25,819 nt of DNA. Origin: a virus. The stretch's first letter is position 1. Each line of letters opens with the position of its first letter. Below the pieces are notes generated by a model, which did not search any database, was not told the origin of the DNA, and saw only the letters and a list, made by a program, of their open reading frames with translations. The DNA lies in IMG/VR virus record IMGVR_UViG_3300025679_000019, positions 1-25,819 of that record. One strand, 5' to 3'. The position numbers and the translations under genes were made by a program. Below are positions 1-15,156 of the stretch, piece by piece.

Positions 1-80
1 CCGAGAGAATACGCGCCGCCGCCCTCGCCCGCTACGACGCCGAGAACGGAGAGAAGGGGATTGCGGAAAACGGGAAGTAA
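1..80 (+). CDS. 3' end of an unidentified gene (truncated by window edge)
   Basis: The frame starting at base 3 is open from the window edge and ends at TAA 78-80, giving a charged C-terminal tail of about 25 residues that ends in ENGK. It is Ala/Arg/Glu-rich and probably helical. The stop falls inside the spacer of the promoter for the next gene. The position just before the terminase genes would suit a DNA-modification, regulatory or packaging-associated gene, but too little is visible to recognise a family. It is reported because the frame is open and the following genes are tightly packed. Confidence 0.5.
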   Translation, partial: ERIRAAALARYDAENGEKGIAENGK

Positions 81-89
81 GGCTATAAT
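61..89 (+). promoter_or_regulatory. Promoter P1, leaderless type, ahead of the packaging genes
   Basis: TTGCGG (61-66), a 17-nt spacer and a perfect TATAAT (84-89) are followed after only 7 nt by ATG 97. Transcription would start at or next to the A of the start codon. No Shine-Dalgarno sequence lies within range of that ATG. The -35 matches consensus at 3 of 6 positions, while the -10 is perfect. The same geometry recurs at 1883, 8167 and, on the minus strand, 11051. Confidence 0.6.
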
Positions 90-96
90 AATTCGG

Positions 97-267
97 ATGG
101 ACAAACATATCGAATCGGTCCTATGTGCTTGCGGCTGTGGAGGAGTTCCTAACGTAGAGACTCGAAACAGGAAGTCTCGCGGCACAGTAAAAGGTCAACG
201 CGCTAAATTCGTCCCTGGTCACTGCGGAAGGTCACTAGTAAGTGGGAGATTTAGTGCCAAAGTTTGA
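97..267 (+). CDS. Small Cys-rich zinc-binding-type protein
   Basis: This 56-residue protein has a tight Cys cluster near the N-terminus (C10, C12, C14, in ACGCGG) and a C-terminal KFVPGHC segment (H42, C43). Small phage proteins pairing a CxCGCG motif with an R/K-F-x-x-GH motif are common in tailed phages and are thought to bind zinc. Their role is not established; a DNA- or RNA-binding regulator or packaging accessory is possible. ATG 97 is chosen because it sits 7 nt after a TATAAT box; an upstream in-frame TTG at 61 lies inside the -35 element. It overlaps the start of the small terminase gene by 14 nt and would be the first gene of the packaging transcript. Confidence 0.6.
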   Translation: MDKHIESVLCACGCGGVPNVETRNRKSRGTVKGQRAKFVPGHCGRSLVSGRFSAKV

Positions 268-556
268 GAAGGGTCACGCCAAGGTGGGGGGGCGTAAGCC
301 AGGCTCCGTGAATGGGTCTACGCGCTTCAAGGAGTTTATGGAAGAAGAAGGCGGGATAGACAAGCTCTTCGCCCTGGCTGACAGCGAAAAGGAAGCCGTC
401 CAGCTTGAAGCCTTGAAGTTCATCGCTGATCGAGCCTACGGAAAAGCCCCGCAAGCCCTAAAGCATACCGGGATAGGCGGCGGTCAAACGATTGTTGCGG
501 GAGACTTCCTCATCGCCCTCGCGGCCCGCATCAATGCTCAACGCATCAACCCTTAG
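254..556 (+). CDS. terS: Terminase small subunit (TerS)-like
   Basis: This 100-residue protein lies directly before the large terminase. The N-terminus has the basic, glycine-rich signature KVGGRKPGSVN (residues 10-20) common in small terminase-like phage proteins, and the C-terminal half carries DRAYGKAPQ. TerS subunits bind the packaging-initiation site and control the TerL motor. GTG 254 is preferred over GTG 242 because GGGAG (244-248) lies 5 nt before it and because the protein then opens with a family-like PKFEKGH. The gene overlaps terL by 23 nt, indicating translational coupling. The assignment rests on the motif and position. The protein is short for a TerS, and no classical helix-turn-helix is obvious by eye. 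Confidence 0.65.
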   Translation: MPKFEKGHAKVGGRKPGSVNGSTRFKEFMEEEGGIDKLFALADSEKEAVQLEALKFIADRAYGKAPQALKHTGIGGGQTIVAGDFLIALAARINAQRINP

Positions 557-1886
557 CGTCCTGGTTGAAGGATGTGGCCTTTCCTTCCCTGACCATTGGA
601 GGGAGTGGGAAAACCTCCTGGCGACCCATCCCAGGCTGTTATTGGTGGCCTCCCGCGACATGGGAAAGAGTACGCTTGTATCGAACTTCTACCCCATCCA
701 TCAGGCTATCATGCGGCCTGGTCTACAAGTCCTCATCATCAGCTATTCCGAAACCCAGTCCATGCGCCTGATTAGCGGGATCAAGGACCTGTTAGAGAAC
801 CGGGATATGCTCTGTACCCTGGTCCCCGAGGAAGGCGAGGATTGGTCGAAGTCTGCCCTCCACTTGAAGAACGGCAGCAGGATCAACAGCCTGACCTTCG
901 GAACCTCTGGGCGCGGCGGGCACTACGACCTCATCATCATCGACGATCCGGTCAAAGACTACAGCGGCATGGACCCTGAGCATCAGGAGGACTACTTCCT
1001 ACGCGCTATAGTGCCCATGGCGAGGCCAGACGCTCAGATCGTGGTAACTGGCACGTTCGTCTACCCGGATGACCTAATCGAGCGTATAAAGCGAAACAAG
1101 GCATACGCCACGTTTGAGTATCCGGCTATCAATTCGGCGGGTGAGCCTCTGTGGCCTACTCGCTGGCCGATTGAGAAGCTACAGACCAGACGCCTTGAAG
1201 TGGGGGAGTACGGTTTCAAGAGGGAATACCTGTTGGAAGCCATCGACCCTGAGGCGCAGTTCTTCAAGCGTTCCATGTTCAAGTTCTACGACCCCGACAA
1301 GATGCCGGAACTGATGAGCCGTGCGGCAAGCTGGGACCCCGCCATCAGCCTCAACGGAGATTTTAACGCCATGATGTGTACGGGGACGGACGAGAAGAAG
1401 GTAACGCGGGTCCTGCCTGAGTACGCAGAATTCAAGAGCGATAACGTCCAGGCCCTGATTGATGAGCAGTTCCGGTTGACTGAGCTTTACGATATCCCCT
1501 ATTGGATCGTGGAAGTCATCGGCTTCCAAAAGCTCTTGAAGGAGCATATCTATGACGCGATGCGCGAGAAAAACAAACACTTCGGGATCAAAGAGATTAA
1601 GCACCACATCAAGAGCAAGCAAGCCCGCATCATGGCATTACAGCCGCGCATTGTGGCTGGAAGCCTGTTATTCCATCCAACGGCGCATGAGGATATTATT
1701 AAACAGTTCTGCGCCTTCCCGAGAGGCCAGCACGACGACATGATAGACGCTCTCGCCTCAATGCTCCCCGATTGGGACGCCCCGCAGCCAGCGACGAAAC
1801 AAGCCCCGCCCGGGTCAATGGATTGGTGGCGGGAGCAGACCGAGGAACCGTCAGAAGGTTGGTACAAAAACCTCGCAAAGACTTGA
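534..1886 (+). CDS. terL: Terminase large subunit (packaging ATPase and nuclease)
   Basis: This 450-residue motor protein pumps genomic DNA through the portal into the prohead and cuts concatemers. The ATPase half has a variant Walker A, SRDMGKST (40-47), a Walker B, DLIIIDDP (132-139, with D137/D138), and a coupling motif, VVTGT (170-174). The RNase H-fold nuclease half has the first metal-ligand Asp in ASWDPA (D268) and the C-terminal QHDDMIDAL (399-407). All expected elements are present in order, so the protein looks intact. ATG 534 is chosen because it leaves a normal TerL N-terminus; in-frame TTGs at 492 and 495 would extend it and lack a good ribosome site. The stop codon overlaps the -35 box of promoter P2. 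Confidence 0.93.
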   Translation: MLNASTLSVLVEGCGLSFPDHWREWENLLATHPRLLLVASRDMGKSTLVSNFYPIHQAIMRPGLQVLIISYSETQSMRLISGIKDLLENRDMLCTLVPEEGEDWSKSALHLKNGSRINSLTFGTSGRGGHYDLIIIDDPVKDYSGMDPEHQEDYFLRAIVPMARPDAQIVVTGTFVYPDDLIERIKRNKAYATFEYPAINSAGEPLWPTRWPIEKLQTRRLEVGEYGFKREYLLEAIDPEAQFFKRSMFKFYDPDKMPELMSRAASWDPAISLNGDFNAMMCTGTDEKKVTRVLPEYAEFKSDNVQALIDEQFRLTELYDIPYWIVEVIGFQKLLKEHIYDAMREKNKHFGIKEIKHHIKSKQARIMALQPRIVAGSLLFHPTAHEDIIKQFCAFPRGQHDDMIDALASMLPDWDAPQPATKQAPPGSMDWWREQTEEPSEGWYKNLAKT

Positions 1887-1911
1887 CACGCTCGTACAGC
1901 CGTACTAGACT
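1883..1911 (+). promoter_or_regulatory. Promoter P2, leaderless type, after terL
   Basis: A perfect TTGACA (1883-1888, overlapping the terL stop), a 17-nt spacer and TAGACT (1906-1911) are followed after 7 nt by GTG 1919. The -10 region GTACTAGACTA (1902-1912) matches the P3 -10 region (8187-8197) at 10 of 11 positions. No Shine-Dalgarno precedes the GTG. It would drive the fibre-to-portal unit. Confidence 0.7.
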
Positions 1912-1918
1912 ATAGACG

Positions 1919-2152
1919 GTGCCAATCTCAACACCCGTTCCCCACGACCTGATAAAGCATGAGAGGGCTTTGTCTCAGTTGTTGAGCGAGATTTGCCGAC
2001 GTGCGATGGACGGGACTGGTCCTATCTCTCTTTCGTTCAACATCACTTTCCCTGCTGGCGTCGGGATCATCCTGACCACTCCAAACGGACTCCATACATA
2101 CCGAGTGAGCGTCCAGAACAACGGCGCACTTTCCTCGACCAAAGTAACGTGA
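1919..2152 (+). CDS. Small hypothetical protein, first gene of the fibre unit
   Basis: This 77-residue protein of unknown function opens with a charged helical stretch (residues 9-31: HDLIKHERALSQLLSEICRR and onward). It continues with a beta-rich half that includes SLSFNITFPAG and GLHTYRVSVQ. GTG 1919 is chosen because it lies 7 nt downstream of the P2 -10 box. No other start or ribosome site competes. Its TGA overlaps the GTG of the tail fibre (GTGA), so the two are likely translationally coupled. A fibre-attachment or chaperone role would fit the position but has no motif support. Confidence 0.6.
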   Translation: MPISTPVPHDLIKHERALSQLLSEICRRAMDGTGPISLSFNITFPAGVGIILTTPNGLHTYRVSVQNNGALSSTKVT

Positions 2153-4035
2153 GAGGATTAATCGCCGCCGCGCTGCTCTTTCTCGTCCCGAGGGCCGATG
2201 CCCAGATCATCACCGTTAACGAGAACTTACCCACGACTAACAGCGGAGTCACCGTACAGACTAGCCCCCCCACACTAGCACTCAATGCGACAACCTACAA
2301 CGGGACCGTACCGACGGTTAGCCTCTATGCGTCCTCTAACGTGGTTGTTGGTAATTGTGTTCTGTACGCTACTGGCACTATTGATTGCTTGGGTGTACGT
2401 CTATCAACGACTGACCCGGCTGGAATATACGTCCCGTACACCGGAGCGACTGGCGATGTGACTTTAGGCACTCACAAGATGCTTGCCGCTCAGTTTGGGG
2501 CCGGGACTTCGCCATCAACCAATTTTCTGTTCGACGGATTGAGCGTGGGCAGCTCATACGCCAGGGTGACGGCTGGCACTAATCTCGCCGCTGGTTACTA
2601 CTGGGGCGGCGCCAGGGGCTACTCGCTCCAAGAGCGTTACGACCTGACCGGAACGCCGTTCACGCTTCACGATGAACTGAATAACGTGGACAGGTTCTCG
2701 CTGGACACTTCGGGGGGCTGGTATTTCCCGGGGTCGGTTACGGCATCGAGCTTCACCGCGCTCGGGACTGGGTTCAAGGGGGCCTTGCAGGGCAACGCGA
2801 CTACGGCTACCTCCGCGACAACGGCTGGGACAATCACAGGGAATATCACCCCCGCACAGGTTGACGGCTCGACTTACACCGCCGCTATCGCCCTCAAAGC
2901 CCCACTCGCCAGCCCTACGTTCACCGGGACCGTGAATGGGGCCGCAGGGGTATTCACCGGAACATTCACCGCTGGCGGTTTCGCCTCCGCTGGTTCAATC
3001 ATCGCTTCAAGCGGGACGTTCACGGCGAATGGGACGGCGCAGTATAGCGTCTTGACCTCTTCGGGAATCCTCGCCAATGCCGGGGATATTTGCGCCGGGA
3101 CAAAGTGCCTGTCTACCGCTGGGACTGGTGCGACTGGACCCGCTGGACCGCCTGGCTCTCCCGCCGGAACGCTCGGCTTCATCACGGACAACTTCCTCGG
3201 ACTGGCGAACGGCGTCACCAAGACTTTCACGCTCACCTACACGCCCTCCGCGAACAGCGAGAACGTGATTCTCGACGGGACTTTGCTCTCGCCTACGTCG
3301 GATTACGTCCTGACCACCAACTCTATCGCGCTGACCACGGCCCCCGCTAAGGCCTGTACTGGCTCGGCTCCGTCTAACTGTACGTCAAGTTTCTACGTCA
3401 GGTATTCGACGGGGGCGTCGGGCGTCAATGCGTTCATCCTCAACTCGTCGCAGACGGTGAGCGGTCTACCCACATTCGCGGGCGGGCTCATCAATAGCAA
3501 TACGAACTTCCAGAGTGCTATGCCTTGGGTGGCATCTGGGACATTCGCCAATGTTTCCTGCGCGACATTCACCGTCCTGGTGTCCTCGGTGAATTGGTGG
3601 ATCGAGTACAACATGACGATCACAGCGACGACGGGACACCTTAAATGGAACTTCATCGCGGGGGCGAACACAGACTTCGGCGCGAACTACAACTGGTCCG
3701 AGAATGGAATCAATAGCGGCGGGAACCCAAATTCTAACCCTGACGAGGGCACAGGCATCGGCTTCTTCTCGTCGCGCGAGTCTCCCGGCGGCGACCCCGG
3801 CGTGGGCAACGGACAGGCGGGAAACCTCTATGTCTACCCGAAATACGGGTTCCCGAAGCAATGGAGATGGGTTCACAACAGCCAGTACGACAGCGCCAGT
3901 TCAGTTTATATAAGGCGATTCGGCGGAGGACTTTACTCCGGGGCCTCGTCGCCTACGGGGGTCCAGATGTGCCACTCAGTCGTAGGCGGTACGTTCAGTG
4001 GCGCTTGGTTCCTACATCGGATGGGGTCATGGTGA
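2149..4035 (+). CDS. Tail fibre-like protein with an N-terminal Sec-type signal peptide
   Basis: This 628-residue protein is rich in Thr, Ser, Gly and Ala. Residues 251-262 read APLASPTFTGTV, a motif recurring in phage tail fibres, followed by GTFTAGGF and SGTFTANG-type beta repeats. A short collagen-like stretch, TGATGPAGPPGSPAG, lies around 326-340. The C-terminal 180 residues are Trp/Tyr/Asn-rich and would suit a receptor-binding tip. The N-terminus looks like a signal peptide: basic R2, hydrophobic LIAAALLFLV and an ADA-Q cleavage site (16-19). GTG 2149 is chosen for its GTGA overlap with the previous gene; the next in-frame ATG is over 300 nt downstream and would cut into the protein. 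A signal peptide on a fibre is unusual, because virions assemble in the cytoplasm. Fibre identity is fairly sure; the export meaning is open. Confidence 0.75.
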   Translation: MRGLIAAALLFLVPRADAQIITVNENLPTTNSGVTVQTSPPTLALNATTYNGTVPTVSLYASSNVVVGNCVLYATGTIDCLGVRLSTTDPAGIYVPYTGATGDVTLGTHKMLAAQFGAGTSPSTNFLFDGLSVGSSYARVTAGTNLAAGYYWGGARGYSLQERYDLTGTPFTLHDELNNVDRFSLDTSGGWYFPGSVTASSFTALGTGFKGALQGNATTATSATTAGTITGNITPAQVDGSTYTAAIALKAPLASPTFTGTVNGAAGVFTGTFTAGGFASAGSIIASSGTFTANGTAQYSVLTSSGILANAGDICAGTKCLSTAGTGATGPAGPPGSPAGTLGFITDNFLGLANGVTKTFTLTYTPSANSENVILDGTLLSPTSDYVLTTNSIALTTAPAKACTGSAPSNCTSSFYVRYSTGASGVNAFILNSSQTVSGLPTFAGGLINSNTNFQSAMPWVASGTFANVSCATFTVLVSSVNWWIEYNMTITATTGHLKWNFIAGANTDFGANYNWSENGINSGGNPNSNPDEGTGIGFFSSRESPGGDPGVGNGQAGNLYVYPKYGFPKQWRWVHNSQYDSASSVYIRRFGGGLYSGASSPTGVQMCHSVVGGTFSGAWFLHRMGSW

Positions 4036-4475
4036 AATATCTCCTCCTCCTCCTCCTCTCCTCCCCCGCCCTCGCGGCCCCGCTCGTCCAGCCGCAGGAC
4101 GTGGCGTTCTCTAACTTCAGCGTCAAGGCCGTGGCCGTCGGCACGACCTCGCTACCGACATCTGCGTTAACCACCTACGGGATCGTGGCTTCCTCGACGA
4201 CCACGCCGACGGTATCTTGTACGGCGGGAACGGGCTTGGTCACGGCTGGGTCCACTACTCAGTTCGGATCATTCGCGGCTGGAACACTCGCCACGGCGTG
4301 TACGGTTACGTTCGGAACCGCGACACCGTTCCCATCGACTCCATTCTGCCAGTGCCAGTCGAACGCCAATCTGCTCGTCTTCGCCAGCGCCGTGAGCAAG
4401 ACCTCCCTGACCTGTACGGCGGCAACCGCCTTGACGGGCGACACGGTCACTTGGTTTTGCTGGGGACCACCTTGA
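4029..4475 (+). CDS. Exported six-cysteine protein resembling a tail-fibre tip domain
   Basis: This 148-residue protein begins MVKYLLLLLLSSPALA, a textbook signal peptide with cleavage expected after A16 or A17. The mature part has six Cys (64, 91, 107, 109, 129, 144), which could form disulfides after export. The segment pattern TVSCTAGTG, ACTVTFG, PFCQCQ, TGDTVTWFC resembles from memory a beta domain found at the C-terminus of many phage tail fibres; here it would be a separate polypeptide. It overlaps the fibre gene by 7 nt and the next gene by 4 nt (TTGA), so all three are coupled. Alternatives are a periplasmic fibre chaperone or a superinfection-exclusion lipid- or porin-binding protein. 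Export is well supported; the role is not. Confidence 0.65.
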   Translation: MVKYLLLLLLSSPALAAPLVQPQDVAFSNFSVKAVAVGTTSLPTSALTTYGIVASSTTTPTVSCTAGTGLVTAGSTTQFGSFAAGTLATACTVTFGTATPFPSTPFCQCQSNANLLVFASAVSKTSLTCTAATALTGDTVTWFCWGPP

Positions 4476-5827
4476 AGATTCTATTTGTCAGCAAAGAATC
4501 CGGCGCTGGAGACTTAGCCCTAAGACTGGCAATGGAGGGTCACGACCTCCGCTATCACGTTGTTGAGAAGGACGAATCCTCCAACCTGGACGGGCTCATT
4601 GAAAAAGAAAAGAACTGGCGGGCGGGAGTGGGATGGTGTGATTACGCCATACTCGACGATACGGGAATGGACGATATCTCGGCTTTCCTCCTCAAAGCAA
4701 AGAAACCCGCCTTCGGGATGGCTTACCGTGACGGGGAGTTCGGCGGGAAGAGTATTGTTGCTTCAAAATTTGCGACCACGCTAGAAAAGGACCGTTCTTT
4801 CAGCCATGAGATAATGGAGCATTTGAAGATCGGTAAGCCCATTGAGTCTCTACAGTTCTCGGATATCGCCCAGGCCATAGAGCATTTGAAGAAGCATCAG
4901 GTTCCGCACGTTATCAAGCCCGAGGTTCAGGGCAGCGGCTCGGAAAAGACCTACGTTGGTCATTTCTGGGACAACTCGGACTGTATCGGATGGCTGGAAC
5001 AGCTACCGAGCCTCCCCAACGCGGGGAAGATCAAGAGCATAGAGGTTGAGGAGCGCAAGGTCGGCGTAGAGGTTGCCGCCTCTACTTGGTTCAACGGAAA
5101 GGATTTCGTGGGGCCTCCCAATATAAATTTCGAGAATAAAAAAATAGCTACCCATAATATCGGATTCAACACTGGCGAAGCAGGGACATCCATGTTTTAC
5201 GGGAAGGACACGAACCGCCTAGCGAAAGAGACCGCCTACCGCATGGGCGACTTTCTACGCAAGTGGGACTATCGCGGACAATTGGATGTGAATTGTATTG
5301 TCAACGAGGAAGGAGTGTGGCCCCTTGAATTTACTCCTAGGCTTGGCTATCCGGCGTCCTACATCGAACAGGAGCTACACACCGAGTGGGGTGATTTCCT
5401 GGCTACGATTGCTAGGGGTGAGGAGTACAAGGGAAAGTTTTCAGAGGATTGGGCCCTCGGTGTTCTTTTGGTGGGGGAAGGCTACCCGTTTTGGACGGAG
5501 TGCGCCGAAAGGACCGAAGGGCATTTAATCCAGAACCTGACGAAAGAGAATATCGAGCATTTCCATCTTTACCATGTGAAGTACGAAAAAGAGAAGTTCA
5601 TCGCTACCGGATGCCTCCCGTTGGTTGTGACTGGGCGTGGCAAGACCGTGGCAGAAGCTAAGAAGAATGTGTACGATTTGATGCCGACTCCTGACGCCCA
5701 AGAGCCAAACTCAAAAGAGGTATACTTCCCTGGGTGCTACCCTGCGCGTCCTGACATTGGCGACAACGTAATAGAAAATTTGAAGAAGCTCAAGGAATGG
5801 GGCTACGACATGGGGCGGTCTGAATAG
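4472..5827 (+). CDS. ATP-grasp ligase, phosphoribosylamine-glycine ligase (PurD)-like
   Basis: This 451-residue protein has a PreATP-grasp-like N-terminus (KILFVSKESGAGDLALRLA) and an ATP-grasp core. The core shows HVIKPEVQGSGSEKTYVG (K149 as nucleotide ligand), the acidic strand EVEERKVGVEV (191-201), LDVNC (D272) and PLEFTPRLGYP (E286). ATP-grasp enzymes join a carboxylate to an amine or thiol through an acyl-phosphate. The usual metal-binding ExN of this family is EFT here (T288 for Asn). Overall length and layout suit the GARS/PurD branch, but its place among structural genes argues for another substrate. TTG 4472 is chosen: it is preceded by GGGGAC, overlaps the prior stop (TTGA) and gives a clean beta-alpha start. 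The real substrate is unknown. Confidence 0.75.
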   Translation: MKILFVSKESGAGDLALRLAMEGHDLRYHVVEKDESSNLDGLIEKEKNWRAGVGWCDYAILDDTGMDDISAFLLKAKKPAFGMAYRDGEFGGKSIVASKFATTLEKDRSFSHEIMEHLKIGKPIESLQFSDIAQAIEHLKKHQVPHVIKPEVQGSGSEKTYVGHFWDNSDCIGWLEQLPSLPNAGKIKSIEVEERKVGVEVAASTWFNGKDFVGPPNINFENKKIATHNIGFNTGEAGTSMFYGKDTNRLAKETAYRMGDFLRKWDYRGQLDVNCIVNEEGVWPLEFTPRLGYPASYIEQELHTEWGDFLATIARGEEYKGKFSEDWALGVLLVGEGYPFWTECAERTEGHLIQNLTKENIEHFHLYHVKYEKEKFIATGCLPLVVTGRGKTVAEAKKNVYDLMPTPDAQEPNSKEVYFPGCYPARPDIGDNVIENLKKLKEWGYDMGRSE

Positions 5828-6276
5828 TGATTACCGAGAAGAGAAAAGAGGCTTTCTTCAAATACGTTATGAAGAACTCGGAGCCATGCTGGATTTGGAC
5901 CGCCTCTAGAAATAAGTGCGGGTATGGGAATTTCAACGTAGAGTCAGGCAAAGGCAAGGAATTTAAGTCGGTATTAGCGCATCGAGTCGCCTGGGAAATA
6001 TTCTTTGGAGAAATCCCACATGGCCTATGCGTTCTCCACGAATGCGACAACCCCCCTTGCGTCAATCCTCGGCACTTGCGGCTTGGGACCCATCTAGAAA
6101 ACATGATCGACGCGGCGAAGAAGGGAAGAAAGGGCCGCTCTCCTCTTGTAGTTAAAAAAATCAGGAAGCTGCTCGGGACGATGACGCAGAGGAAGATAGC
6201 GGCTACTCTCGGCGTTACTGCTCAGCACGTTTCCGACGTTGCTACTGGAAAAACGTGGTCAAGGTATGTCTCTTGA
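5827..6276 (+). CDS. HNH endonuclease (HNH_3 type) with C-terminal helix-turn-helix
   Basis: This 149-residue protein is a likely free-standing homing-type nuclease. Its core is AHRVAWE, GEIPHGLCVLHECDNPPCVNPRHLRLGTH, with H71, C73, C78, N80 and H83 as probable metal or catalytic residues. LENMIDAAKKGR follows, as usual in this family. Residues 119-143 (TQRKIAATLGVTAQHVSDVATG) look like a helix-turn-helix for target binding. GTG 5827 shares one base with the ATP-grasp stop and has GGGGCGG (5812-5818) 8 nt upstream; ATG 5869 would remove 14 residues. The nearby junctions are one-base or few-base overlaps, so any insertion was precise or has since been streamlined. Confidence 0.85.
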   Translation: MITEKRKEAFFKYVMKNSEPCWIWTASRNKCGYGNFNVESGKGKEFKSVLAHRVAWEIFFGEIPHGLCVLHECDNPPCVNPRHLRLGTHLENMIDAAKKGRKGRSPLVVKKIRKLLGTMTQRKIAATLGVTAQHVSDVATGKTWSRYVS

Positions 6277-6361
6277 TTGCCCGCGACCTCTCGACCGCGC
6301 CGAAGTCCTCCCCGATGAGGACGACGAGGATTATTGGATCGACGACGATCAGGACGACTAA
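6266..6361 (+). CDS. 31-residue acidic mini-protein
   Basis: ATG 6266 opens inside the end of the HNH gene and stops at TAA 6359-6361, where the last A is also the first base of the portal ATG (TAATG). The product is strongly acidic: the tail EVLPDEDDEDYWIDDDQDD contains 11 Asp/Glu in 19 residues. Support comes from the perfect bridging of the HNH-portal gap with an overlap at each end, matching the style of neighbouring junctions. The weak AAGG directly before the ATG and the small size count against it. It may mainly act to couple translation into the portal gene. Confidence 0.45.
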   Translation: MSLDCPRPLDRAEVLPDEDDEDYWIDDDQDD

Positions 6362-8163
6362 TGGCCTCTAAAGAAAAAGAAGAGAAGAACGACCCCTACC
6401 GCGTCACGGCGAGAGTCTGGATGGAGCGCATCAAGCGCGGACTAAAGTACCGCGACAAGATCAAGAAAGAGCAGGAGTGGGGCCGTCTCCAAAAGGAGTA
6501 CGAAGGCCGCTACTCAATCCAGGTCGGAGGCATTGACGCCCCGCCCATCAATCTCGTTTTCGGATACGTTGACACCGCCTCGGCCCGCATCTACTTCCGT
6601 GACCCGCACATGACGATCAACCCCAAGGGAGCGGAATCCATTGGTGCTGCGCGGATCATGGAACTAGACGTTAACTACGCCTTTAAGGCGTTGAAGCTAA
6701 AGCCCACGGTCAAGCAGGTTTTGAAGGATGCCCTGATTGTCTCGCACGGCTGGCTTAAGTTCGGCTACGTCTCCGAGACTGGCGAAATGCTCTCTGACCC
6801 TGGTACGGAGCCGTCCGAGTACATCAAGTCCGAAGAAATATTCATCAACTACGTTCCCTGGGAAGATATTATCTTCGATACGTCTATGTCGAAGAATCCC
6901 CCTTACGATTGCCGATGGATTGCCCATCGAATCGTAAAGAAAGTGGACGAGATTAAGAAGGACAATAACTACAAGAACACCGGGCGCATTTCTTCTAACA
7001 TCGCCACTCGGGACCTAAAGGACGGAGAGGATAAGAACAAAGCGGATCAACAGTCGGACTCCGATTCCGACCTCTTTGAGTTTTGGGAAGTCACTGACCT
7101 AGACTCCAAGAAGGTCTACGCGGTTTGCGACCAGTCGGACAAGTATCTCCGCGAGGACGATTACAAGTACGAAATGAAGGGACTCAATTATTCCATGCTG
7201 GCCTTTAATCGGGTCAACAACAAGCCCTACCCTATCTCCGATTGCTTCCTTGGTGAACCCCAGTGGTTAGAGCGTATCAAGCTCCGCTTCACTCAGCTAA
7301 ACCATATCAAGCGTTGGAACCGTCAGACCTCGGTTGAGGAAGGGTCTATGTCCAAGACGGAAATGGACAAAATGACGCAGGGCATTGACGGAGCCGTGAT
7401 TCAGAGGCTCAAGGGTTCCGCCCCGCCGACTCCGATTGAATACGCGGCTCTACAGTCTGAGATTTTCGCGGTTGATAACTTGCTACAGGCCGACGTAGAC
7501 GCGGCCCTAGGTCAGTCAGACCTTGACCGTGGCGGGCCTCCCAAGACCAACGCCAAGACGACCAAGTACCAACTCCAAGAGCAGAACCAGGGGACCAACG
7601 TCCGTCAGAATTCAAAGCAGGACGTTCTAGAGGATTTCCTAGAGGAAGTCACTGACAAGTACATCGCCTTGGTCAAGCAGTTCCAAGATACCCCCAAGTT
7701 CGTCCGCATTACCGGAATGAACGCCAAGGATATCGCGGCGACGTTCGCCAAGATTCCCGGCGTTACCGCCGATGAAACCGGGATCAAGTTCACCAAGGAA
7801 GCGATTCGGGGTGAGTTTGAAGTTGATGCCAAGGCGGGCTCTACTCTCCCTCTCAACCGAGAGAACAAGATTCGATTACTAGAAACCACTCTGGACAAAG
7901 GCCCGGCTCTAGGAATCGTCCCCGGCTCTCCGATTGGTAACGCGGTCAGGAAAGCTTTACTGAGGGAGTTGGACATTCAGGAATTGGAAGTCGCTTGCGA
8001 CGAGCAAGAGGCGATGGAAAAGAAGATGGCGCAACAGCCTCGTCCTCCGCAGCCGCAACAGAAATCAAACGAGCATCACGTTATCCACCACCAGGGGCCG
8101 CCAGCGCGTCCGCATCCTGGCGGGGCTAACGCTGGACCTCTCCCGGCTCCGAGCGCACAATAA
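6361..8163 (+). CDS. Portal protein
   Basis: This 600-residue protein would form the dodecameric DNA gate at the capsid vertex. Portal-like features are size, a Lys/Glu-rich N-terminus, RGLKYRDKIKKEQEWGRLQKEYEG, LKDALIVSHGWLKFGY, VPWEDIIFDTS, a long helical segment (VEEGSMSKTEMDKMTQG; AVDNLLQADVDAALG) matching the wing/stem of portals of podo- and siphoviruses, and a His/Pro-rich disordered tail (HHVIHHQGPPARPHPGG). ATG 6361 has AGGA (6351-6354) upstream and overlaps the preceding 31-residue ORF. The gene lies between terL and scaffold/coat genes, as expected, though the fibre genes intervene. P3 follows the stop by 3 nt. Confidence 0.8.
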   Translation: MASKEKEEKNDPYRVTARVWMERIKRGLKYRDKIKKEQEWGRLQKEYEGRYSIQVGGIDAPPINLVFGYVDTASARIYFRDPHMTINPKGAESIGAARIMELDVNYAFKALKLKPTVKQVLKDALIVSHGWLKFGYVSETGEMLSDPGTEPSEYIKSEEIFINYVPWEDIIFDTSMSKNPPYDCRWIAHRIVKKVDEIKKDNNYKNTGRISSNIATRDLKDGEDKNKADQQSDSDSDLFEFWEVTDLDSKKVYAVCDQSDKYLREDDYKYEMKGLNYSMLAFNRVNNKPYPISDCFLGEPQWLERIKLRFTQLNHIKRWNRQTSVEEGSMSKTEMDKMTQGIDGAVIQRLKGSAPPTPIEYAALQSEIFAVDNLLQADVDAALGQSDLDRGGPPKTNAKTTKYQLQEQNQGTNVRQNSKQDVLEDFLEEVTDKYIALVKQFQDTPKFVRITGMNAKDIAATFAKIPGVTADETGIKFTKEAIRGEFEVDAKAGSTLPLNRENKIRLLETTLDKGPALGIVPGSPIGNAVRKALLRELDIQELEVACDEQEAMEKKMAQQPRPPQPQQKSNEHHVIHHQGPPARPHPGGANAGPLPAPSAQ

Positions 8164-8166
8164 CCC

Positions 8167-8196
8167 TTGACACAAATCGGACAAGAGTACTACACT
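8167..8196 (+). promoter_or_regulatory. Promoter P3, leaderless type, after the portal gene
   Basis: A perfect TTGACA (8167-8172), an 18-nt spacer and TACACT (8191-8196) are followed after 8 nt by ATG 8205. GTACTACACTA (8187-8197) is nearly identical to the P2 -10 region. No Shine-Dalgarno lies between the -10 and the ATG. It would drive the capsid-assembly unit and possibly everything downstream. Confidence 0.7.
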
Positions 8197-8204
8197 AATC
8201 GCCA

Positions 8205-8483
8205 ATGACCTGTAACGGTTGCCAGAACAAGGAAGCCCACCGGATTTCCTATTCCTCCAAGGGCGAGTCATGCGACAAGTGCGGCAATCCTGGCAAGGTC
8301 ACTTTCGCGGACGTTTTCTTTGACGCGAAGAAAGGCGCGTATCTCGACCACAATATCACGGACCCCGTTAAGGCCCCGTTCGGAACCATGATTACATCAC
8401 GTTCCCATAAGGCCGAAGTGATGAAGCAGAACGGACTCCGTGAAGTCGGAGACAAGCGGCACGGATCGAGGGACAGGTTTTGA
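8205..8483 (+). CDS. Small zinc-ribbon protein (FmdB-like)
   Basis: This 92-residue protein has two CxxC pairs (C3/C6 and C23/C26), typical of a zinc ribbon. A C-terminal segment, TSRSHKAEVMKQNGLREVGD, recurs in small phage proteins found near portal and capsid genes, often labelled FmdB-family regulators. It would bind zinc and possibly nucleic acid; a role in late transcription or assembly is conjecture. ATG 8205 lies 8 nt after the P3 -10 box and is the first gene of that unit. Its TGA overlaps the TTG of the next gene. Confidence 0.6.
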   Translation: MTCNGCQNKEAHRISYSSKGESCDKCGNPGKVTFADVFFDAKKGAYLDHNITDPVKAPFGTMITSRSHKAEVMKQNGLREVGDKRHGSRDRF

Positions 8484-8650
8484 ACGACGCTCGATTGATT
8501 GTCATTATGTCGTCCGGAGAGAAGAAAGACTTGGTTAAGCTGTTCGACCAAAAGACCAAGGAGTTTTTCGACGAGAAGGTGAACGGCTCTATCCGTTTAC
8601 ATTTCAGTCAGGGATACTTAGCCAAGATCGAAAGCACGACGTTCGACTGA
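8480..8650 (+). CDS. 56-residue hypothetical protein
   Basis: The TTG at 8480 overlaps the previous stop (TTGA) and has GAGGGA (8468-8473) 6 nt upstream. The later ATG 8507 has no ribosome site, so TTG is preferred. The protein begins MNDARLIVIMSS, has a Lys/Asp-rich helix (GEKKDLVKLFDQKTKEFFDEK) and a short beta tail (SIRLHFSQGYLAKIE). No family is recognised. Junction style and ribosome site support that it is real, and it fills what would otherwise be a gap. Confidence 0.5.
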   Translation: MNDARLIVIMSSGEKKDLVKLFDQKTKEFFDEKVNGSIRLHFSQGYLAKIESTTFD

Positions 8651-8699
8651 CGTTAGTTCGTAAACCATCGTAAAAATACTTGCGGTAAGGGCACGAACC

Positions 8700-8721
8700 C
8701 TCTCCAAGAAGTAAAGGAGAG
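8700..8721 (+). promoter_or_regulatory. Hairpin masking the ribosome binding site of the next gene
   Basis: CTCTCC (8700-8705) and GGAGAG (8716-8721) are exact 6-bp complements separated by a 10-nt loop. The right arm contains the GGAG of the AAGGAG site (8714-8719) for TTG 8725. If formed in mRNA, the stem would occlude ribosome entry, a possible brake on translation. There is no U-run, so it is not a typical terminator. The rest of 8651-8724 is AT-richer spacer with no clear promoter. Confidence 0.4.
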
Positions 8722-8724
8722 ATA

Positions 8725-9495
8725 TTGCCTGACAACGCAACCGGGTACGATCCACTTAGCGGACTAAACTCCGGTAACTTGGATTTCCAGTCCCTTCAAG
8801 GGAACTTGGGCGGCTATTTGTACAACGCCCCCGTTGCGTTCAATCCTGACGCCATTCCCGGCGTCAACTCCCAGACCGGATATATTGATTTCGGGGCCAA
8901 CTACAACCCCAATCCCGGGGCCCCCGGCAATAACGACTATCTCTACTACGGGAATTACGGGGAAGCCCTCGCCGCTTCCAACCCCACTCATGGCGCGGTT
9001 TCCTACGGCTCCGCAGCCGAAAATTCTCTAGTCGGCACTCCCGGCAATGGCGACCCGATGATTAACGGCGTGGACTACACTTCCGGGGCTTCTTACGCTA
9101 GTCTCGCCGCGCAGGGTATAGGCACTTACAACCCTGGCGGTATCGGGACCCCTGAGAACGGCGCGGCGTCTAGCTATATCACGCCCTACAATCAGTACAC
9201 AGAACCCGGCTACACGGCCCCTACGGCGACCGCTACGGGGCCTACAGGCTCTCAGAGCTACGGACCTGATGGGTCTGCCCTATCCGGTGGCTATAACCCC
9301 ACCTCGTTCCTTTACGGCAACAACGGGAGCGCGGGAAGCCTCTCTGGGACGTTCACCAATACGACCCCAGGACAGTCCAGCCAATTCTATCAGTCTGAGC
9401 CCGGGAGCCTGACCAACGGCACTCCGTCAACTCTCGGAACTCTACAGCCCTATAATCCTGCCCTACAAGCCCTCAACACTTCACGGAGCCAATAA
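8725..9495 (+). CDS. Gly/Asn/Tyr-rich hypothetical protein
   Basis: This 256-residue protein is dominated by Gly, Asn, Tyr, Ser, Thr and Pro in loose repeats (GANYNPNPG, GNNDYLYYGNYG, GTPGNGDP, GTPENGAAS, NNGSAGSLSGT). It has almost no charged residues or predicted helix, so it is probably disordered or amyloid-like. TTG 8725 has a strong AAGGAG 5 nt upstream, partly buried in the hairpin at 8700-8721. It sits between portal and scaffold, where minor capsid or internal proteins are often encoded. A virion component is likely, but no family is recognised. Its stop overlaps the next ATG (TAATG). Confidence 0.7.
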   Translation: MPDNATGYDPLSGLNSGNLDFQSLQGNLGGYLYNAPVAFNPDAIPGVNSQTGYIDFGANYNPNPGAPGNNDYLYYGNYGEALAASNPTHGAVSYGSAAENSLVGTPGNGDPMINGVDYTSGASYASLAAQGIGTYNPGGIGTPENGAASSYITPYNQYTEPGYTAPTATATGPTGSQSYGPDGSALSGGYNPTSFLYGNNGSAGSLSGTFTNTTPGQSSQFYQSEPGSLTNGTPSTLGTLQPYNPALQALNTSRSQ

Positions 9496-9785
9496 TGCCC
9501 CCTAACGCGATGATGGACGCCCTACAGGCCAGCCGTGGAGCGAACCCTGCGCCGTCCGGCGGCCCCCCGGCTCCTGGCGGTATGCCGCCTCCGATGCCTA
9601 CGGGTGATCCTGCCCAGGCCCAGGCTATCGCCAAGCTCTCTAGCGGTATTCAGGACATTACCGCGAAGCTCGATAAGCTGATTGAGGCTATCTCCGGTCA
9701 GTACACCGGGAAGGCCGAAGGATCGGAACCCGTCGAAGATGATGAGAAGGGAGAAGAGTCGGGCGAAGCAAAGACTTTCAAGTAA
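9495..9785 (+). CDS. 96-residue hypothetical protein, Pro-rich then coiled
   Basis: The N-terminal half is Pro/Gly/Met-rich (APSGGPPAPGGMPPPMPTGDP). The middle is a helix with heptad-like spacing (IAKLSSGIQDITAKLDKLIEAI), and the tail is acidic (EPVEDDEKGEESGEA). This layout suits a small oligomeric assembly factor or scaffold-like partner, encoded just before the scaffold gene. ATG 9495 overlaps the preceding stop (TAATG). No family is recognised. Confidence 0.65.
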   Translation: MPPNAMMDALQASRGANPAPSGGPPAPGGMPPPMPTGDPAQAQAIAKLSSGIQDITAKLDKLIEAISGQYTGKAEGSEPVEDDEKGEESGEAKTFK

Positions 9786-9803
9786 TGAACCAGGAGAACA
9801 AAA

Positions 9804-10568
9804 ATGGAATCCACGGCTACGGAAACTAACCCCGCCGAATCGCAGACCGAAACCGCCCCGGAAACGGTGACGGAGACTCCCGCGCCCGAAAACCAGGCCC
9901 CGGCGTTCGACCCGTCTAAGATCGACGCTAAGACCCGCGAGTATTTCGAGAACGAAACCAAGACCAAATACCAGGACTACGAACCGTCCAAGCGGGCCGC
10001 GCAAGAGCTTAACGCGATCAAGAATGACCCCGGATTCCAAAAGTGGATTGCCGAGCGCAACGCCCCCGCCCCGGCCAAGCCGTTTGAACTGACGGACGAC
10101 CAGTTTACCGCCGCCCTGACAGACAAAGCACAGTTCGCCAAGTTGGTTCAGGAAGCCGCGAAGGACTTGCTACAGCGTGAAGTCCAGCCGAAGCTACAGC
10201 AGCAGGAACAGCACGTCCAGCTACAGGCCCGCTCCGTTGAGCTTAAAGAAGTCATGGACAAGTTCCCCGACTTCAAGGAACTGGACAAGCGCGGACTTAT
10301 CGCTGATTTCGTGGAACGGTACGGCCAGGTCCCGGGATTCAAGTTTGAGGACGCCTACTGGATGGCTAAGCGTCACACGTTCAAGGACGATGTGGCGAAG
10401 GCCGCTAGGGGTCAGGTGACTGAGCGCAAGGGTGCCGGGGTTGAGCGCGGCAACAACGCTCCCGCCGCCAAGCGGACGTTTGTTAAGGTTGAGGACCGAT
10501 TGGAAGCAATGACTCGCACGGCAGAGGACTTTGCCGCTGGGAGAGAACAGCAGGAATACGATTGGTAA
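9804..10568 (+). CDS. Capsid scaffolding protein candidate
   Basis: This 254-residue protein lies upstream of the coat gene. It has a disordered Glu/Thr/Pro-rich start (residues 1-35), then charged helices including a Gln-rich stretch (LLQREVQPKLQQQEQHVQLQ) and a basic C-terminal region (VTERKGAGVERGNNAPAAKRTF) before a final EYDW. Acidic, helical, Gln/Glu-rich proteins just before the coat gene are typically scaffolds that template prohead assembly and then leave. AGGAG (9792-9796) precedes ATG 9804. No protease motif is visible. Position and composition are the main evidence. Confidence 0.65.
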   Translation: MESTATETNPAESQTETAPETVTETPAPENQAPAFDPSKIDAKTREYFENETKTKYQDYEPSKRAAQELNAIKNDPGFQKWIAERNAPAPAKPFELTDDQFTAALTDKAQFAKLVQEAAKDLLQREVQPKLQQQEQHVQLQARSVELKEVMDKFPDFKELDKRGLIADFVERYGQVPGFKFEDAYWMAKRHTFKDDVAKAARGQVTERKGAGVERGNNAPAAKRTFVKVEDRLEAMTRTAEDFAAGREQQEYDW

Positions 10569-10573
10569 ACAGA

Positions 10574-11044
10574 CTAAACGGGGTTGAGGCGTCCGAACTC
10601 TCCATGGTACTTGATGGAGGCGGCGTTGTACGCCTTTGCGGCTTCAATGGCAGTTTTGAATCTCCCAATGTATTTCGTTCTGCCATCGTAGCTAATTCGG
10701 GCGTAGTATCTCCCCTTGCGCTTGGATACGCCTTTTATCCTAGTTTTACTGTTGGCATTGACTCGGCGGTTTCTTTGGTTTTGGGCGTGAGTCGCCCCTC
10801 TGAGATTTTCCTTGCGGCAATCGAGTCCGTCTCCGTTTATGTGGTCAACCTCATAGGGGGGCAAGCGCATAACAAGACGGTGGAGGGCGACGTCTTTGCT
10901 TGGCCGTCCGCTCTGAGGGATACAAGCCATCGCATAAAAACGATGCCTGTCTTTTTGCGCTCTCCACTTGAAGCGACTAACAATGTCCGCATCCTCGTCG
11001 TCGATTATTGCCGTCTTGCCTTGCGTGAGTTTTACATGGGCCAT
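10574..11044 (-). CDS. HNH homing-type endonuclease with AP2 DNA-binding domain, antisense insertion
   Basis: This 156-residue protein has the HNH signature LHRLVMRLPPYEVDHINGDG and CRKENLR (H55, D67-H68, N80). An AP2-type domain (102-155) with KGVSKRKGRYYARI, YIGRFKTAIEAAKAYN and a final HGEFGRLN follows. This HNH-AP2 pairing is common in phage homing endonucleases, which cut intronless alleles and are copied in by repair. It is the only gene on the minus strand and exactly fills the scaffold-coat gap; its stop lies 6 nt past the scaffold stop. ATG 11044 has no ribosome site but lies 6 nt after a TACAAT box, so it probably has its own leaderless promoter. It looks intact. Confidence 0.9.
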   Translation of the reverse strand: MAHVKLTQGKTAIIDDEDADIVSRFKWRAQKDRHRFYAMACIPQSGRPSKDVALHRLVMRLPPYEVDHINGDGLDCRKENLRGATHAQNQRNRRVNANSKTRIKGVSKRKGRYYARISYDGRTKYIGRFKTAIEAAKAYNAASIKYHGEFGRLNPV

Positions 11045-11050
11045 AGCAAG

Positions 11051-11056
11051 ATTGTA
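11051..11056 (-). promoter_or_regulatory. Minus-strand -10 element P4 for the antisense endonuclease
   Basis: Read on the minus strand, TACAAT (11056 to 11051) is followed after 6 nt by ATG 11044, the same start-at-ATG spacing as P1-P3. The -35 is poor: TTGTTT (11081-11076) with a 19-nt spacer is the best candidate. No Shine-Dalgarno precedes the ATG. The site lies between the divergent endonuclease and coat genes. Confidence 0.4.
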
Positions 11057-11121: not shown

Positions 11122-12093
11122 ATGAGCGTCCCCGGCCAGCAGTTTAGTTATGGACCCTCCAATGTGGACGCTCTATTGAGCACCACTTTGGCGTCCATTC
11201 CGAAAAAGAAGTTCGCGGATAACATCTTCACGAAGATTCCCCTCTTCATGTGGTTCAAGAAGAAAGGGAAAATGACCGTGGATGGCGGGGCTAACTTGAT
11301 GATGCCCCTCATGTACGGTAAGAACACGACCGCGAAGTCTTACAGCGGTTATGGGATTATCGACACGACCCCGCAGGAAGGCTTGACGGCTGCTTCTTAC
11401 CTGTGGGCGCAGTACGCCGCGACGGTCAGCATTTCGGGTCTTGAAGATCGGGTCCAGAACGTCGGGACCGCCGCTATCATCAAGATTCTTGAGTCCAAGG
11501 TGACTCAGTCCGAAATGTCCCTCGCGGACAAGCTGGACATTGACCTGTGGGCGACGACTGTGACGGGCACGAACATCAACACCGTTCAGACCGTCGTTGA
11601 CCAGACGACCACGATTGGTCAGGTCAGCAAGTCGGCTAACTCCTGGTGGCAGTGTCAGACGACTGCTTCCGGTTCGTTCGCGGCGCGTGGCCTGTCCGAC
11701 ATGAGGAACCTGTACAACAACATCACTAACCAGTCCTTGGCTAAGGGTGCGCCGGACCTCATCATCTCGGATCAGGCTTCCTTCCAGTATTACGAAGGAA
11801 CGGTCCAGCCGCAGATTCGGTATTCCGATACCGACATGGCCGACGCTGGCTTTGAGAACCTGCGTTTCAAGGGCGCGACCATGACCTACGACCCAAATAC
11901 GCCTTCGGGCAAGATGTATATGCTGTCCTCGGACGCCTTGAAGTTGGTTACGAACAAGGGTACGAACTTCATCACCACGAAGTTCATCCAGCCCGCCAAC
12001 CAGGACGCCAAGGTTGCTCAGATTCTCTGGGCGGGTCAGCTTGCGTCGGATAACATCCGCCGCTTGGGCTCTCTGACCGGGATCACGGCGTAA
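11122..12093 (+). CDS. Major capsid (coat) protein
   Basis: This 323-residue protein follows the scaffold and has a strong AAGGAG (11108-11113). Its size and alternating alpha/beta layout suit an HK97-fold coat. Coat-like segments include the N-terminal FADNIFTKIPLFMWFKKKGK and GGANLMMPLMYGKN, a long helix region (AIIKILESKVTQSEMSLADKLDIDLW), GAPDLIISDQASFQYYEG (an alpha/beta strand of the A-domain) and the C-terminal GQLASDNIRRLGSLTG. There is no N-terminal delta domain, consistent with a separate scaffold. Exact family membership was not checked. Confidence 0.8.
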   Translation: MSVPGQQFSYGPSNVDALLSTTLASIPKKKFADNIFTKIPLFMWFKKKGKMTVDGGANLMMPLMYGKNTTAKSYSGYGIIDTTPQEGLTAASYLWAQYAATVSISGLEDRVQNVGTAAIIKILESKVTQSEMSLADKLDIDLWATTVTGTNINTVQTVVDQTTTIGQVSKSANSWWQCQTTASGSFAARGLSDMRNLYNNITNQSLAKGAPDLIISDQASFQYYEGTVQPQIRYSDTDMADAGFENLRFKGATMTYDPNTPSGKMYMLSSDALKLVTNKGTNFITTKFIQPANQDAKVAQILWAGQLASDNIRRLGSLTGITA

Positions 12094-12842: not shown

Positions 12843-13010
12843 ATGTCTCAATCCCCCAATCTTTATCGTTGCGATTTCGACGATCAGTTATTGCGTGAAA
12901 AGGACATCGCGGACGGAAAGCATTTAGGACACCGGATTCACTACGCCCGCAAAGGGGATGTGTGGGACTGGCTCTTGATTCAGTATTGGAAATTAACAGG
13001 GGGTCTATGA
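12843..13010 (+). CDS. 55-residue hypothetical protein ahead of the glycosyltransferases
   Basis: ATG 12843 follows AGGG about 8 nt upstream, and the TGA at 13008-13010 overlaps the next ATG (ATGA). The product begins MSQSPNLYRCDFDDQLLREK and has a Trp-rich C-terminus (GDVWDWLLIQYWKLTGG). It is charged, likely helical and matches no family recognised here. Filling the gap exactly, with a four-base overlap onto the glycosyltransferase, supports it as a real gene in that operon. Confidence 0.5.
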   Translation: MSQSPNLYRCDFDDQLLREKDIADGKHLGHRIHYARKGDVWDWLLIQYWKLTGGL

Positions 13011-13780
13011 CGATGGAAACGAATCCATTCAAAGACGACACGAAGATCAAGGTTCTTCTCGCGGAGCCGTCGGCGGGGATGGTGGACTGTATCGCCCACG
13101 ACAACCGATTGGATCAGTATATCGAGATGGGACGCCTTGAGTCTGCCGGGAGGTTCAAGTTCTTCACCGGGAACACCGGACGTTGCGGCATAAACTACGC
13201 CCGCGAAACGATGGCGAATGAGGCCATCAAACTCGGCATGGACTATTTGTTTATGACCGATGACGACATGATTCTTCCGCGCAAGTGCTTTGAGCGCGTG
13301 TACGAAACTCTAGTCGCAGAGAAAGCGGATATCGCCGCACCGATTTGCACACAGCGGGTATACCCGTTCAAGCCCGTGATGTATCAGCACGAATGGATCA
13401 AGGGCGACACCGGAGAAAGACTCTCCAATAACATGGTCGAGGACTACGAGCCCAATTCCGTCGTCAAGGTTGACGGCATCGGCTTTGGAGTGGTCCTCAT
13501 CTCCGTCCCCTTCCTCGTCAAGATGAAAGAGAAGATGCCTCGCGGAATGTTCTTCTCCAACTCCGACATCGGAGAGGATATTTGGTTCTGTATTAACGCG
13601 AAGCGGCTGCTTGATGCCAAGATCGTAGTTGATACCTCGGTCAAGGTGGGACACCTGAGACATCCCGAGATGGCGACGGAGTGGGACTACATCAAGGCAA
13701 CTGGACGTAAAGAGAAGTTCGCCGGGGTCTACAGGGATGACGGGTCTTTCGTTTGCGTCCCTCAGGCGGTGGCCGCTTGA
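13007..13780 (+). CDS. Glycosyltransferase, GT-A fold (GT2-like)
   Basis: This 257-residue protein should transfer a sugar from a nucleotide-sugar donor. It has a KVLLAEPSAG opening strand, NYARETMANEAI (nucleotide-binding region), the DXD-type triad MTDDDM (D85-D87) for the metal-diphosphate, GIGFGVVLIS acceptor-loop elements, GEDIWFC (E190/D191, catalytic-base region) and HLRHPE (216-221). GT-A enzymes of this sort are common in phage genomes. ATG 13007 (GGGGG upstream, ATGA overlap) is chosen; ATG 13013 is also possible. It ends overlapping the next glycosyltransferase start (TTGA). Donor and acceptor are unknown; the location in the capsid operon suggests a virion substrate. Confidence 0.8.
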   Translation: MTMETNPFKDDTKIKVLLAEPSAGMVDCIAHDNRLDQYIEMGRLESAGRFKFFTGNTGRCGINYARETMANEAIKLGMDYLFMTDDDMILPRKCFERVYETLVAEKADIAAPICTQRVYPFKPVMYQHEWIKGDTGERLSNNMVEDYEPNSVVKVDGIGFGVVLISVPFLVKMKEKMPRGMFFSNSDIGEDIWFCINAKRLLDAKIVVDTSVKVGHLRHPEMATEWDYIKATGRKEKFAGVYRDDGSFVCVPQAVAA

Positions 13781-15156
13781 AAACCCAACAGTCAGCCAAT
13801 ACGGCGCGGGCCACAGTGGACTTCATTTGCCCCACGTTCAACAGCCATACCGTAAATAATTTCGTCAATTCCTTGGTTCGCTTCACGGCTGAACCGTTCC
13901 GACTCATCCTCGTCAACAACGGGGACAAGTGGCCCGCGTCAGCCATCCCCGACGACTCCCGCATCGTCGTCTTAAACGCCGGGAATAACCTCGGATGGAT
14001 GGGCGGGATTAACGGGGGACTTGAGTGGGCATTGGCGCACGATCCGGCAAAGTACATTTGCTTCATCAATGACGACGTTCAAATCATGGAGCATGACTAC
14101 GGCTGGCTACCCAAGATGATCGCCGCCTTTGATAAGCCGGGAGTCGGTGCCGTCGGTCCCACTTCAAACGCGATCATGGGCTATCAGTCCTTCAACCATA
14201 TCGGCTTGCCCCCGTACCTCGAAACGGCGGCTCTCTCCGGTATGTGTATGCTCGTCAAAAGAGAAGTAATCGAGAAGATTGGGAACCTCGACGAGTCTTT
14301 GCCGGGAGGAGACGACCTTGATTATTCTATCCGAATTCGCAACGCGGGCTATCGCCTTGGCATCTGTCGTCGTACTTTTCTTTACCACCATTACGCTGCT
14401 ACTGGTAAGCGTGTCCATGGTGAATACTGGGACTCCCAGGCCCATTCCGAAGCCATCAACGCGGCCCTGATTAAGAAGCATGGCTTCAAGACTTGGTACA
14501 CGACGACCAACAATATGCTTCCGGGAGCGGGTGGATTCGATTTCATCAAGTCCGAGGAGAAACTAGCCCTTGAAGAACTGGCCCCGCATCTTGACGGAAA
14601 GGTCCTCGACCTCGGATGCGGAGGCAAGAAAATTGACCCGCGAGTTATTGGCGTCGATATCCGGCCAAACGGAGACTACGGCGTCGGATACAACGCCCTT
14701 ATCCCTTCGGGCGGGGAAGTGGCTTGCGATGTGGTCAAACTTGACCCATTCGCGGATCGGTCGGTAGACGCCATCCTCGCCAAGCATCTAACCGAGCATA
14801 TCCTAGACGTTCCGAAGGCGTTGCGCGAATGGTCCAGGGTTTTGAAGTACGGCGGTCAGCTTGTCATCATCGTGCCTGACTGGCGATACTGCGAAGCTAT
14901 TTCCTGCGATCCGAGCCATGTCCATGCGTTCACCCCTGAAAGCCTCAAGTCTATAATCGAGGTTTCCACGGACCTGACTATAACGCGAACGGAAAGCGTT
15001 GAGCCCGGCTACGTGTTCATGATTTCTTGCCAAAAGAAACCATTAGTCATCAGCGAGTACGTCCAGATGAACTACGCCGAGGATATTTGGGAGTCGCGGG
15101 AGTGCGACCGACTCAACATGCCCGTCGAAATGCGAATGTGCGCGGTGGCGGCATGA
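13777..15156 (+). CDS. Bifunctional glycosyltransferase family 2 - SAM methyltransferase
   Basis: This 459-residue fusion has a GT2 domain (about 1-245): FICPTFNS, NNLGWMGGINGGLEWAL, FINDDVQI (D99/D100), SGMCMLVKREVIEKIG, GGDDLDYSIRIRNAGYRLG (D179/D180/D182) and YHHYAATGK. A class I methyltransferase domain (about 260-420) follows: VLDLGCGG (276-283), GVDIRP (D294), HLTEHILD and a VLKYGGQLVIIVP strand. A bifunctional enzyme of this sort could add a sugar (often rhamnose-type) and methylate it. TTG 13777 overlaps the prior stop (TTGA); upstream GTG candidates lie inside the previous gene. Both catalytic cores look complete. Confidence 0.85.
   Translation: MKTQQSANTARATVDFICPTFNSHTVNNFVNSLVRFTAEPFRLILVNNGDKWPASAIPDDSRIVVLNAGNNLGWMGGINGGLEWALAHDPAKYICFINDDVQIMEHDYGWLPKMIAAFDKPGVGAVGPTSNAIMGYQSFNHIGLPPYLETAALSGMCMLVKREVIEKIGNLDESLPGGDDLDYSIRIRNAGYRLGICRRTFLYHHYAATGKRVHGEYWDSQAHSEAINAALIKKHGFKTWYTTTNNMLPGAGGFDFIKSEEKLALEELAPHLDGKVLDLGCGGKKIDPRVIGVDIRPNGDYGVGYNALIPSGGEVACDVVKLDPFADRSVDAILAKHLTEHILDVPKALREWSRVLKYGGQLVIIVPDWRYCEAISCDPSHVHAFTPESLKSIIEVSTDLTITRTESVEPGYVFMISCQKKPLVISEYVQMNYAEDIWESRECDRLNMPVEMRMCAVAA

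Follow-up and report, generated by a model that had tools for sequence, protein, structure and literature searches.

Genome organization

The window, by which we mean the whole 25.8-kb stretch of DNA analyzed here, is the tailed phage record IMGVR_UViG_3300025679_000019 (55% G+C). It is a genome fragment that starts 96 nt ahead of the gene behind P1, one of four candidate promoters (P1 to P4), and stops inside a gene (Table 1). The capsid protein is distantly similar to those of Myxococcus phage Mx8, a Bradyrhizobium phage and Stenotrophomonas phage BUCT555 (24-32% identity).

Table 1. Candidate promoters and selected genes of the window
Feature	Position	Strand	Details
P1	61-89	+	weak -35 TTGCGG (61-66), 17 nt, perfect -10 TATAAT (84-89), 7 nt to ATG 97
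Head gene of terminase operon, predicted leaderless	97-267	+	56 aa; function not assigned; phrog_25114
Probable small terminase	254-556 (alternative start 242)	+	own SD-like GGGAGA; overlaps head gene
Large terminase subunit	534-1886	+	phrog_38, E=9.8e-73
P2	1883-1911	+	TTGACA (1883-1888), 17 nt, TAGACT (1906-1911), 7 nt to GTG 1919
P2 head gene, predicted leaderless	1919-2152	+	77 aa; GTG start; in-frame TAG 6 nt upstream
Fibre-like structural gene	2149-4035	+	4-nt GTGA overlap with P2 head gene; no SD
Portal, SU10/P22 type	6361-8163
P3, probable head-operon promoter	8167-8196	+	TTGACA (8167-8172), 18 nt, TACACT (8191-8196), 8 nt to ATG 8205
P3 head gene, predicted leaderless	8205-8483	+	92 aa; four-cysteine zinc-ribbon-like, starts MTC; in-frame TAA 9 nt upstream
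56-aa gene	8480-8650	+	TTGA 4-nt overlap with P3 head gene
HNH endonuclease	10574-11044	-	PF13392, E=4.3e-9; phrog_99, E=1.5e-40
P4	11051-11059	-	extended -10 TGGTACAAT; TACAAT (11056-11051) 6 nt ahead of ATG 11044
Major head protein (capsid)	11122-12093		phrog_9953; tail genes downstream

One relative, IMGVR_UViG_3300050020_000068 (27,357 bp; "rel" coordinates refer to the reverse complement of this contig), overlaps the window from the terminase onward with 70-81% DNA identity in the aligned stretches and has ~10.8 kb more to the left. Searches of IMG/VR with the terminase, portal, capsid, P3 protein, P1 protein and HNH queries identified no close relative beyond this one.

An ATP-grasp or phosphoribosylglycinamide synthetase-like gene (4472-5827; GARS_A and GARS_C, under the curated cut-off) lies between the fibre-like genes and the portal gene, and is kept in the relative with ~73% DNA identity. 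A second HNH gene is found at 5827-6276. Inside the structural operon, between the capsid-region and tail genes, there is a three-gene cluster (13007-16019) in which glycosyltransferase profiles match one gene and methyltransferase profiles another. The small tandem paralogues at 16480-16770 and 16779-17075 each begin MAGGNKHGTA. Rfam identified no structured RNA in the window or in the relative.

Candidate promoters ahead of operon head genes

The original prediction was that four TANNNT boxes lie 6-8 nt before start codons, that they mark every apparent transcript start and that the genes behind them lack Shine-Dalgarno (SD) sites. Each of the four sites was confirmed where it had been placed, with its box, spacing and start codon as predicted; the first T of TANNNT lies 13, 13, 14 and 12 nt from the start in P1 to P4, respectively. 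By sequence, P2 and P3 are strong full promoters, each with a perfect TTGACA, and their conservation in a relative supports both as real. P1 and P4 are plausible but weaker candidates: the -35 of P1 matches the consensus at only 3/6 bases and that of P4 is poor (TTTCCA-16, 4/6 consensus bases), although the TGG ahead of the P4 TACAAT makes an extended -10. In sigma-70 promoters, an extended -10 can stand in for a -35.

Anti-SD duplex energies, scored on the stretch 4-18 nt upstream of the start, were -2.9, 0.2, 0.8 and -2.9 kcal/mol for P1 to P4, which is no better than random 15-mers from the window (median -2.9); the lack of SD sites in these four genes is thus borne out. At most of the remaining starts there is an SD site or an overlap with the preceding gene, as had also been noted. 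The four start codons (ATG, GTG, ATG and ATG) all fall within the RTG-only rule described for leaderless starts in mycobacteria (PMC4633059).

A TANNNT box 5-9 nt upstream is present at 4 of the 37 assigned start codons in the window, and these are exactly P1 to P4. Of the six starts with an intergenic gap >25 nt, four have such a box, versus none of the 31 others (Fisher P = 2.3e-4), and a gap of at least 32 nt lies ahead of all three forward starts (P1 to P3). The other two starts with a gap >25 nt, at 8725 and 11122, use a strong AAGGAG with no adjacent promoter-like box, such that the claim for every apparent transcript start nearly holds, with these two as exceptions. The spacing had also been expected to exceed chance. 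It does so mildly: four boxes 6-8 nt before a start were observed versus 1.1 expected from shuffled upstream regions (P = 0.027). Because this raw count is only mildly above the shuffles, P1 and P4 are unconvincing alone; what carries the case is the exact -35/-10 pairs, together with where they lie and the fact that they are conserved.

Exact TTGACA-16..18-TANNNT pairs number two in the window and four in the relative (0.24 and 0.22, respectively, in shuffles). Five of these six, in the 53 kb of both phages, sit 6-8 nt ahead of an ATG or GTG, while an ATG or GTG falls within any three consecutive positions at ~7% of places. The full arrangement TTGACA-16..18-TANNNT-6..8-[AG]TG occurs twice in the window (shuffle mean 0.03) and three times in the relative (0.003). 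Mx8, lambda and ϕC31 contain no exact TTGACA-TANNNT pair and are therefore weak negative controls only. A promoter-like sequence at 19936-19964 (TTGACC-17-TAAAAT) was discarded because its -10 runs into the start codon ATG 19963. We also rejected an archaeal TATA box, as the -35/-10 layout and the 17-18 nt spacing are bacterial.

Conservation in the relative

At the P2 and P3 positions, the relative has TTGACA-17-TATCAT-8-ATG and TTGACA-17-TACACT-8-ATG, respectively, and these hexamers and the 8-nt start distance survive while the spacers and flanks diverge. The start codons are pinned by the in-frame stops ahead of them and by the proteins. The P2 proteins of the two phages align in register and without gaps, beginning at the start codon and continuing through PHxLxKxERxLSQ, while the P3 protein retains C3-x2-C6 and C23-x2-C26 in the relative amid many synonymous changes. 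In the left arm of the relative, TTGACA-18-TATACT-6-ATG lies ahead of a 34-aa reading frame, which shares an ATGA overlap with the next gene, and a TTGACA-17-TATATT with its -10 at rel 3801 is not ahead of an obvious leaderless gene. The leaderless-start pattern therefore extends to three of the four exact promoters of the relative, with that at rel 3801 departing from it. Two of the relative's head genes encode 34 and 149 aa, and the overlaps behind its head genes are ATGA twice and TAATG once. The promoter pattern was not seen in the stretches examined from the distant capsid relatives L015-L017, L019 and L020 (capsid ~40% identity or less).

P2 and P3 share GTACTA[G/C]ACTA at 10/11 bases, in agreement with the original prediction. 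Directly ahead of the -10, a spacer element, TCGKACAnnnGTAC, is common to window P2, window P3 and relative P2, with window P3 and relative P2 identical at 14/15 bases. When IMG/VR was scanned for this element, no contig other than the same relative was found. The two left-arm promoters of the relative differ, having extended -10 boxes with CTACT(T)GCTATA[T/C]T. The shared TCGKACAnnnGTAC may reflect duplication or exchange of promoter cassettes, or a site for a regulator.

Predicted leaderless translation and re-initiation

When a -10 hexamer ends 6-8 nt before a start codon, sigma-70-type polymerase starts there or 1-2 nt before. We consider it likely that P2 and P3 act as host sigma-70-type promoters whose transcription start lies no more than 2 nt from the start codon, producing leaderless or near-leaderless mRNA; the same probably holds for P1 and P4. 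Leaders of 0-2 nt are well supported for P2 and P3 by conservation and pinned start codons, and are a reasonable prediction for P1 and P4. For comparison, leaders of <5 nt are counted in the leaderless class in Lactococcus (PMC10986495).

From these sequence features we infer the transcription start, leaderless translation and coupling of the genes behind it as follows. The host sigma-70-type polymerase would start at, or within 2 nt of, the head-gene start codon. Since the mRNA would then begin right at the start codon, ribosomes would have to load on a bare RNA end and recognise its 5'-terminal AUG or GUG. In the forward-strand operons, the small leaderless first gene (56, 77 or 92 aa) would be translated first, and later genes would be reached via SD sites and stop-start overlaps. 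The overlapping starts behind the head genes make the originally proposed link to re-initiation a sensible one; in the terminase operon, the overlap between the head gene and the small terminase gene is 14 nt (or 26 nt with the alternative start).

The fibre-like gene is the clearest candidate for such coupling. Its SD energy is -0.4 kcal/mol in the window and 0.0 kcal/mol in the relative, where the gene behind P2 has a matching layout with an ATGA overlap with the head gene. As there is no SD in either phage, this gene is probably translated by re-initiation of ribosomes from the leaderless 5' end, and apparently by re-initiation alone. A broader reading is that ribosome entry only at the mRNA 5' end is a general gate to the operons, with re-initiation the only route to key structural genes like the SD-less fibre-like one, and with TCGKACAnnnGTAC marking a phage-regulated late-promoter class separate from the extended -10 type in the other arm; we think this unlikely.

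Two structural-type genes, 2149-4035 (RGLIAAALLFLVPRADA) and 4029-4475 (MVKYLLLLLLSSPALAA), encode signal-peptide-like N-termini, and the relative's gene behind P2 likewise begins MIKLLVAAILSLSVS. Export would be unusual for phage fibre-like proteins.

At P4, the HNH gene is an antisense insert between the capsid gene and the gene preceding it, with its own predicted leaderless-type promoter. An in-frame stop is found 21 nt upstream of the P4 start, and the HNH protein starts at the same place as in its homologues. Both P4 and this gene are absent from the relative. At P1, the PHROG profile phrog_25114 matches the 56-aa protein from near its first residue. An alternative TTG at 61 is formally open for this gene because there is no in-frame stop upstream within the window.

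Alternative explanations

It is possible, although we favor the contrary, that P2 and P3 alone are truly leaderless and that the P1 and P4 boxes are chance -10 matches, with their genes read from promoters further upstream or on other transcripts. The poor -35 sequences are consistent with this, as is the expectation of about one TANNNT at such a distance by chance among 37 starts. Promoters upstream of P1 would lie outside our view, and no P4-type box was found ahead of the HNH homologues L021, L025 and L026. However, the TATAAT of P1 is perfect, the -10 of P4 is extended, and neither start has an SD site. In a third phage, the 39% G+C viral contig L034, the homologue of the P1 gene starts at the equivalent ATG, and an extended -10 (TGATATATT) is located 6 nt ahead of it; this box provides independent support for a leaderless P1 gene. 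The relative also carries TTGGAA-16-TATGAT-5-ATG at the matching position, ahead of its small terminase gene and terminase operon.

The conserved elements could instead serve chiefly as operators or as sites bound by a late regulator of the phage, in which case their closeness to start codons would follow from how compact the intergenic regions are (32-41 nt). The recurrence of TCGKACAnnnGTAC beside the -10 and the tight intergenic room would fit such sites, but this element is missing at P3 of the relative, which still keeps its -35, -10 and 8-nt distance. Compactness also does not force the loss of SD sites, since these fit into gaps of 7-12 nt elsewhere in the window. We regard this explanation as quite improbable. 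Least credible of all is that the promoters are real and that the working start codons lie further downstream, behind ordinary leaders. The P2 gene does have TTG codons at positions 18, 21 and 22 and a purine-rich stretch ahead of codon 18, but the residues before codon 18 (PHxLxKxER) are conserved in register with the start, and the first 40 codons of the P3 gene contain no further start codon, with the zinc-binding cysteines of its protein beginning at residue 3. The preferred reading remains that of leaderless or near-leaderless head genes, firmest at P2 and P3.

Host

The original prediction took the promoter pattern as a possible clue to the host, naming Deinococcus-Thermus and actinobacterial hosts as ones in which such mRNAs are well known. 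TANNNT-led leaderless genes do make up 39% of genes in Deinococcus-Thermus and 19% in Actinobacteria, but they also account for 26% in Aquificae and 13% in Acidobacteria and are found in other groups (PMC3160421; PMC12340547). Because several phyla use this style and no host was found, the clue is weak. No relative of the portal was found in 84,980 genomes. The only capsid relatives at ~40% identity were two marine MAG contigs, L019 (a Euryarchaeota MAG) and L020 (an Acidimicrobiaceae MAG), which are possibly mis-binned viral contigs; among 296 genomes of the phylum of the Acidimicrobiaceae MAG, the sole portal match was that same MAG. Leaderless GTG starts are well translated in mycobacteria and Streptomyces and poorly in E. 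coli and Caulobacter (PMC9031893). As a host clue, the P2 start favors bacteria that translate GUG-led leaderless mRNA well and names none of them, and it is a hint only since the relative has ATG at that position.

Comparison with known leaderless systems

In bacterial leaderless genes, TANNNT is located ~12 bp before the start (PMC3160421), and in mycobacteria a 5'-terminal ATG or GTG is both necessary and sufficient (PMC4633059). P1 to P4 resemble TANNNT-led leaderless genes in their 12-14 nt spacing, lack of SD sites, ATG or GTG starts and mixture with SD-led genes (PMC3160421, PMC12340547, PMC4633059). They differ from those of Deinococcus-Thermus and Actinobacteria in that the latter are cellular genes with TANNNT as the main signal described, whereas P2 and P3 add a perfect TTGACA.

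Leaderless phage promoters are already known from lambda cI and Corndog, but the strategy is under-described. The lambda cI mRNA from PRM is a leaderless phage mRNA made by host RNA polymerase; there, only a single repressor gene is concerned and lambda otherwise relies on SD leaders, while the window phage has predicted leaderless starts at most of its apparent operon heads. If this is confirmed, nearly every operon of the phage would be headed by a leaderless gene, making it a clean natural system for the study of 5'-end ribosome loading and re-initiation, and gene callers that rely on SD sites may misplace or miss the small head genes of such phages.

In the cluster O mycobacteriophage Corndog, PL1, PR2 and PL2 are predicted leaderless SigA-like promoters with +1 at the first base of the start codon (PMC4351075). 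One Corndog leaderless promoter serves a gene running leftward within the structural operon, which makes it comparable to P4 (PMC4351075). The promoters are predicted in both cases, but Corndog belongs to unrelated Mycobacterium siphoviruses, while those described here head structural operons with a P22/SU10-type portal. Thermus phage P23-45 is another unrelated phage, with a thermophilic host, in which a scan of the first 50 kb gave one exact TTGACA-TANNNT pair followed 5-9 nt later by a start codon; leaderless mRNAs were reportedly described in this phage by Berdygulova et al. in 2011.
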